A DNA stretch of 26,499 bases, taken from a virus. Below, in pieces: positions 25,491-26,499 of the stretch (position 1 is its first letter; each line of letters starts with the position of its first letter). The DNA lies in the IMG/VR virus record IMGVR_UViG_3300030085_000001, positions 1-26,499 of that record; one strand, 5' to 3'. The translations under genes and the position numbers were made by a program. Below the pieces are notes generated by a model. That model searched no databases. It had not been told where the DNA came from and worked only from the letters and a program-made list of their open reading frames with translations.

Positions 25491-25496
25491 TGTCAA
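25469..25496 (-). promoter_or_regulatory. Putative second promoter at the head of the operon
   Basis: On the minus strand TTGACA (25496-25491), 16 bases, then TAAAACTATACAC (from 25474). It has the same form as the sites at 3566 and 10740. It overlaps the start of the first gene, so a transcript from it would begin inside that gene and serve mainly the genes after it. Confidence 0.45.
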
Positions 25497-25513: not shown

Positions 25514-25605
25514 TATCACTTTAAGTGATAGTTCGCATCACTTAAGTGTCCAATTAAGTGTATTTATAATTTTACTAAATAACACTTTAGTGGTCACTTA
25601 TAGTG
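25514..25605. promoter_or_regulatory. Five palindromic CACTT-AAGTG operator-like boxes
   Basis: The boxes are a perfect 17-bp palindrome at 25514-25530 (core CACTTTAAGTG), a perfect CACTTAAGTG at 25539-25548, CAATTAAGTG at 25551-25560, CACTTTAGTG at 25583-25592 and CACTTATAGTG at 25595-25605. Boxes 2/3 and 4/5 are each spaced 12 bases start to start. All lie between the consensus promoter and the first gene. The centres are 0-1 base wide, so they suit a dimeric DNA-binding protein rather than RNA hairpins. Confidence 0.75.
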
Positions 25606-25626
25606 TAAGTTCGTTTAGTTTATATA

Positions 25627-25655
25627 ATTATACCAGAATGCAGGTACCGTGTCAA
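25627..25655 (-). promoter_or_regulatory. Perfect consensus sigma70 promoter for the leftward operon
   Basis: On the minus strand TTGACA (25655-25650), a 17-base spacer and TATAAT (25632-25627): an exact match to the sigma70 consensus in both hexamers and spacing. Transcription would start near 25620 and run leftward through a 130-base leader containing the palindromic boxes into the gene at 25490. Confidence 0.9.
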
Positions 25656-25810
25656 TACCTAAAATGCAAATCCGCGCAAATTAATTTGTAGTTGCACAAA
25701 AAATAGGCAGATTGCACACCCCTTGTGCATATATGATTGTCAGTTACTGTAGTGGTTAACAGTTAATTTTACTGATCTGTGTATTTCTGTGTACACATAT
25801 ACTACGTACG

Positions 25811-25897: not shown

Positions 25898-26281
25898 GCT
25901 AAGTCATTGTGCGCAAACGCTTTATGCGCAATGGGCAACAGATAGTGCATCATTTGACGTTTCAATGTGTTAGCACAAAAGCACAATTCACCGAAATTGT
26001 CGTGAAAACGTCAAGGCGGTGCATATCAGAACAGAAATGGCCTTACACCTATATATACAAAAATCGAATTTTTCACCAAGCCACACCCCATCACCTCTAA
26101 GTCACTGTAATCCTTAGCAAATCAAATTAATTTCAAATAAATTGCATTTTTATTTCCAACAAAATCAGTGACTTAACACTACAATTCAACAAAAACAATG
26201 GGTTAGCTATGAAACACAAATTCATCGCCGCTAAGTTATTGTTTTTATTAGGGTAACTTCAGCTAAGTTACTGTTTTTATT
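25898..26281. repeat. Iteron-like TAAGTYAYTG repeats
   Basis: Copies are at 25898-25909 (GCTAAGTCATTG), 26097-26107 (CTAAGTCACTG), 26166-26176 (inverted), 26230-26249 and 26262-26281. The last two are 20-base copies differing at two positions and spaced 32 bases apart. A 7-bp dyad, GTAACTT/AAGTTAC (26253-26271), lies between and within the last pair. Confidence 0.7.
25941..26027. other. Long imperfect stem-loop
   Basis: Nested inverted repeats are GATA/TATC (25941-25944 with 26024-26027), TGCA/TGCA (25946-25949 with 26020-26023), TTGACGTTTC/GAAAACGTCAA (25954-25963 with 26004-26014, one extra A) and ACAATT/AATTGT (25983-25988 with 25995-26000). Together they form one extended 87-base hairpin in the non-coding region. 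Confidence 0.65.
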
Positions 26282-26499
26282 GAGAGTTGTATTCTCTGTG
26301 GCTTTCGTGTCTAATCAAATCATCGAGGGCGACGGGCCGCCACTGCCAAGGCAAGCGAGACAACCCCCCGATAGCCAGATAACCCTAGACTGCCATTGGC
26401 GACGTAGGGCTGGCATTAGAAGACGGACTAGGCCGGACACTGATAGGCCCATAAAATTCAGTGTAGCTTGCGAGGCTAGGGTTTGCCCACATAGCGAGC

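Follow-up and report, generated by a model that had tools for sequence, protein, structure and literature searches.

Oriented near-palindromic boxes behind the late promoter of HMO-2011-type marine podophages: a candidate operator array

Introduction

In a stretch of viral DNA of 26,499 nucleotides (IMG/VR virus record IMGVR_UViG_3300030085_000001, positions 1-26,499; "the window" below), a promoter with the sigma70 consensus is followed by a series of short boxes within its own leader. This raises the question of what the boxes do, whether they are read as DNA or as RNA, and which protein reads them. HMO-2011-type phages, to which we assign the window, have been described as dominant in the oceans and widely distributed there, and some of their subgroups have been reported to lack lysogeny genes (PMC9038755). 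As far as annotated, they have no phage RNA polymerase. The literature searched contained no description of the array, and no late-gene timing, expression or binding data for HMO-2011-type phages.

Results

Judged from its sequence, the window represents part of the genome of a marine podophage of the HMO-2011 type. Its TerL shares 86% identity with the terminase of Puniceispirillum phage HMO-2011, the portal, terminase and capsid proteins were assigned to phage families, and the layout is that of HMO-2011-type phages. On the plus strand of the 55 kb HMO-2011 genome the early genes extend as far as 16.8 kb. The late genes are transcribed from the minus strand, between 53.2 kb and 16.9 kb, and form a block of approximately 36 kb preceded by one host-type promoter, the same as in the window. 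The DNA around the promoter and the array is approximately 82% identical to HMO-2011 over the aligned pieces. By this comparison, the promoter and the box array of the window are the leader of the late block, located where the early and late blocks diverge on the HMO-2011 map.

Prophage copies were sought in GTDB genomes; the six matches were all in metagenome-assembled bins, on phage-sized contigs, and were read as mis-binned phage. The bins whose contigs carry the phage gene (L302-L307) are labelled Bacteroidetes, Marinimicrobia, Flavobacteriales and Blastopirellula, and these contigs are probably mis-binned phage. Two further repeats were noted elsewhere in these genomes. Intergenic regions of the early part of HMO-2011 (L087/L086, about 53.8-55.3 kb and 1-0.1 kb) contain three or more copies of the hairpin AGTCCG-NNNN-CGGACT, which is possibly an RNA processing or regulatory element. 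The non-coding right end of the window (26210-26290) harbours GCTAAGTTA(T/C)TGTTTTTATT twice, with related AAGTCACTG words further left.

The exact sigma70 promoter with a 17-nt spacer that the sequence-only reading had described is present on the minus strand (25655-25627, P1 in Table 1), and its start site would lie approximately 7 nt past the -10, near 25620. The same reading had called such a promoter rare; in the HMO-2011-type family it is the rule, as the homologous leaders carry an exact match in 73/84 cases and a near match in 79/84. Upstream of P1 there is a TGCACA..TTGTGCA palindrome (window 25695-25740), kept in the matching HMO-2011 region, which is possibly an operator for the divergent early side. 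At the other end of the leader, a TTGACA hexamer (window 25491-25496) is, in most relatives, immediately adjacent to the ATG start codon of the first late gene, and in CRP-9/CRP-13-like phages there is a full second promoter at this hexamer.

Table 1. Promoter, boxes and first gene of the late operon in the window
Feature	Coordinates	Strand	Remarks
Late-operon promoter P1, TTGACA-17-TATAAT	25627..25655	-	direct reading; exact in 73/84 homologous leaders
P1 -35, TTGACA	25655-25650	-	direct reading
P1 -10, TATAAT	25632-25627	-	direct reading; 17-nt spacer from -35
Box 1, CACTATAAGTG, 11-mer	25595..25605	-	unchanged in the alignment of the 5 closest relatives
Box 2, CACTAAAGTG, 13 bp from box 1	25583..25592	-	direct reading
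A/T spacer between first and second box pair	25561..25582	-	word TTAGTaAAaTTATAAATA recurs in relatives
Box 3, CACTTAATTG	25551..25560	-	direct reading
Box 4, CACTTAAGTG, 12 bp from box 3	25539..25548	-	direct reading
Box 5, CACTTAAAGTG, 11-mer, inside TATCACTTAAAGTGATA	25517..25527	-	direct reading
First late-operon gene, 70-71 aa	25278..25490	-	HIPxSxVFYxR core, conserved across the group

Five CACT..A.TG boxes follow P1 on the minus strand (25605-25517), at approximately +15 to +103 from the presumed start. Chance is ruled out, as 2000 dinucleotide shuffles of the leader gave a mean of 0.028 boxes and at most 2. A generic box motif with two mismatches was not enriched across the whole window, and the signal is therefore the clustering. 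The number of boxes agrees with what had been read from the sequence before, but not their description as five CACTT-AAGTG palindromes in pairs 12 bases apart: only two are perfect, 10-mers and 11-mers are mixed, and one pair is spaced by 12 bp and the other by 13 bp.

A scan for relatives of the first late gene found 488, and the best 80 were kept; box statistics were calculated from 44 non-redundant leaders. Among these best 80, a typical leader of the window clade consists of the promoter and an A+T-rich stretch with 4-7 boxes. Box length is 10 or 11 bp, and most boxes are paired, the members of a pair often lying 12-14 nt apart, with approximately 20-24 nt of recurring spacer words between pairs (TTTCTTTGTTAATA and TCTTGTTAAA between the second and third pairs). 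In the 44 leaders, CAC-N4-GTG was observed 28 times (0.6 expected) and CAC-N5-GTG 46 times (1.1 expected), while most other CAC/GTG gap lengths were near chance. Orientation follows transcription (CACTTAAATG 32 vs. 3 in reverse, CACTTAACTG 14 vs. 1, CACCTAA 15 vs. 0). The boxes are restricted to +1 to +150, being close to zero over the 600 bp upstream and the 450 bp downstream; the first box begins 14-24 nt past the -10 in 37/44 leaders, and in the window clade no box overlaps the -35 or -10. No box clusters, only scattered singletons, were found away from the late leader in HMO-2011 and the near-complete relatives scanned. Stronger purifying selection on the boxes was not seen in the closest relatives, in which boxes and linkers did not differ measurably (11/52 vs. 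13/53 variable columns). In leaders L008, L014, L016, L027, L051, L078, L080 and L084, which are approximately 220-270 nt long, a short hydrophobic ORF (MTKYVMYIYVSII...) replaces the last box and sits between the array and the gene for the 71-aa protein.

The box class differs between lineages: CACT..AGTG, TACT..AGTA, AACT..AGTT and CATT..AATG were all found. The window clade has CACT..AGTG (outer pair C-G 57 times), CRP-9/CRP-13-like phages have TACT..AGTA (outer pair T-A 48 times), and CRP-207-like phages have AACT..AGTT or AGTTTAACT. In clade B, TACTTAT is oriented with transcription 33 times vs. 2. Within the window clade, seven genomes carry boxes of the CATT..AATG type throughout the leader. 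The boxes of one leader switch class together (e.g. L013, L063), as expected for one trans-acting factor. Promoter-bearing relatives keep the array though its sequence class changes, a favourable outcome, since the loss of the boxes in relatives keeping the promoter would have spoken against the roadblock or operator proposed by the sequence-only reading. Other repeated words, CCTTTAAGTA and TTCAAGT, were seen by eye near a strong late-side promoter in Cobavirus CRP-4 and in Sinorhizobium phage phiM6.

CRP-1, CRP-2, CRP-9 and CRP-13 share the host strain FZCC0023 (host table, PMC6918029) and, despite this, differ in box class. It is consequently unlikely that the boxes are read by a host protein whose specificity is fixed, and the reader is probably phage-encoded. 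In CRP-9 and CRP-13, structural genes of the HMO-2011 type occur together with a replication module of the Cobavirus type (PMC8528129), which indicates that box class is not simply tied to the structural genes.

The first late gene had been proposed to encode the binder, acting on its own operon. Its 70-71-aa product is conserved in all the clades compared, its gene always adjoins the array, and AlphaFold predicts a small fold of three helices (mean pLDDT 77), all of which would suit autoregulation through the boxes. However, no residue of the protein separates the 7 CATTA-type from the 73 CACTT-type genomes among 80 relatives, and its HIPxS-VFY core is invariant while the boxes switch class. 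The structural model had no convincing match in the PDB, and the protein belongs to no Pfam or PHROG family. The proposal was consequently not borne out: from the alignments, the protein is unlikely to determine box specificity, and it is highly improbable that it binds the boxes and autoregulates its operon.

Other candidate binders were considered. No HTH or RHH family was matched among the HMO-2011 early proteins scanned, which were part of the gene set. Gene families co-varying most with leader similarity (gp16, gp13 and the exonuclease) were set aside, as three divergent genomes drive the ranking; gp16 is, in addition, a very acidic protein. The basic, 135-aa gp03 of HMO-2011 was discarded for its patchy distribution. 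An Arg-rich early protein of approximately 55 aa (INPVAKALLQ..RRR..VVPDKTKYNRKKDK) was found in 15 of the genomes compared, with a related family in 3 more, its gene lying approximately 3-4 kb to the right of the promoter (e.g. near 1.3 kb in HMO-2011). It is possibly a nucleic-acid binder, and was rejected as the box binder because it has no visible link to box class.

Orientation and restriction to the transcript, taken alone, would suit an element read as RNA. The boxes of the leader transcript would then be bound by a phage RNA-binding protein or by host Nus factors, for antitermination of the late operon in the manner of lambda nut or HK022 put, from which an operon of approximately 36 kb would benefit. 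The recurrent spacer words that separate pairs two and three point the same way, and the N/nut system likewise has sequences that differ between lineages. However, in clade B (the TACT lineage) only 1-3 nt separate the -10 from the first box in 15/15 strong-promoter cases, so that the presumed start site would lie inside the box and the transcript would lack the 5' half of the box. In CRP-9-like phages, TACTT-[AC]GTA spans the spacer and -10 of the second promoter (8/8), and in clade C, 9/12 cases have a box in the 30 nt preceding the -35 of the second promoter (26% background); these clade-specific positions, those of clade B included, are counts from few lineages. The sense RNA also disfavours hairpins, its C.A mismatches (CACTTAAATG, 32) exceeding U.G wobbles (CATTTAAGTG, 3). 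Fold z-scores were low and similar on both strands, which the repeated palindromes alone could produce, and the difference between sense and antisense disappeared against shuffles, being explained by composition; hairpins were therefore rejected as evidence. The Rfam scan of the leader gave no family at threshold. We infer that the overlap with the start site in clade B and the overlap with or flanking of second promoters favour DNA over RNA as the target, and we consider an RNA element unlikely.

The leader (about 74% A+T, 26% G+C) might also be a replication origin, with the boxes as iterons for a phage initiator and the transcript serving as the primer, in the manner of the primary origin of T7. 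This would agree with the A+T-richness, with the position of the array at the divergence of the early and late blocks, and with the iteron-like appearance of short oriented repeats. Replication-module proteins also follow leader similarity better than structural proteins do, but this correlation is due to three divergent genomes, and the highest-ranking product is the acidic gp16. Moreover, the box spacings are irregular (12-15, 31-36 and 43-51 nt), unlike regular iterons, the overlap of boxes with the start site and second promoters better fits transcription control, and no initiator gene was identified. We regard an origin as quite improbable.

Discussion

We consider it rather likely, from comparing the leaders, that the boxes form a homotypic operator array, through which a DNA-binding protein of the phage would control the late promoter, most likely negatively. 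The sign of control would be repression rather than activation: a consensus promoter requires no activator, which makes negative control the simpler possibility. A roadblock or operator had already been suggested from the sequence, and that suggestion is retained as regards the array, which is oriented, lies in the initially transcribed region, overlaps the start site in one clade, and overlaps or flanks internal promoters in others; its choice of the 71-aa protein as binder is not. Three observations count against the operator reading, namely that the boxes of the window clade never overlap the promoter, as operators are expected to, that no DNA-binding family was found among the HMO-2011 early proteins scanned, and that the boxes are no more conserved than the linkers in the closest relatives.

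If the leader is such an operator array, a putative phage-encoded, sequence-specific DNA-binding protein would control the single strong sigma70 promoter of the late block. Its copies would occupy the oriented boxes, which reach from the start site to approximately +150, and would prevent productive transcription, either by occluding the start region, by blocking RNA polymerase just past the start, or both. The late genes would switch on once the protein vanishes or is modified, or once replicating genomes, adding 4-7 boxes apiece, titrate it. A wider proposal, which we put forward tentatively and hold to be rather doubtful, is that oriented operator arrays of lineage-switching sequence are, subfamily-wide, the master timer of late genes in HMO-2011-type (possibly also Cobavirus-like and phiM6-like) phages, a fast-evolving phage protein blocking the consensus host promoter from within the leader and being titrated by genome copies with 4-7 boxes each.

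The array offers a concrete, testable control element for the late genes and a readily recognised late-operon marker for metagenomic contigs. Phages of the same host strain with different box classes constitute a natural specificity-switch series for finding the DNA- or RNA-binding protein.

Several known systems resemble the array in part. The lambda OR/OL operators likewise combine several short dyad sites with a strong host-type promoter, but here the sites extend as far as +150 within the transcribed leader and never lie over the -35 or -10 in the window clade, and the operon guarded is late rather than early. The MetJ met boxes are also tandem short palindromes about 12 bp apart, whereas the 10-mers described here are oriented and asymmetric, and long spacers separate the box pairs. 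Lambda nut and HK022 put are, like the array, phage-specific leader elements ahead of long operons; by contrast, no stable sense-strand hairpin is favoured here, no conserved leader RNA hairpin was found, and in a related clade the start site falls within a box. Of the features of iteron origins, direct orientation and A+T-richness are present and regular spacing is absent.

Cluster A mycobacteriophages have stoperators (L5 gp71, TipsytheTRex repressor), oriented DNA sites that are proposed to halt elongation and constitute an established precedent for sites of this kind (PMC9283540). The array shares with them short, phage-specific sites downstream of a promoter, of lineage-specific sequence and oriented with transcription (CACTTAAATG 32:3, CACTTAACTG 14:1, TACTTAT 33:2). 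Stoperators are single, asymmetric 13-bp sites scattered over the genome, many of them in short intergenic spaces, whereas the boxes are near-palindromes of 10-11 bp, 4-7 of which cluster in one leader, and clusters were found in the late leader only. The stoperator system also includes a monomeric immunity repressor; the HMO-2011 early proteins scanned showed no HTH-type family. Because scattered sites were looked for and not found, the array does not belong to the stoperator system of the mycobacteriophages; it would work like a clustered stoperator or operator array.
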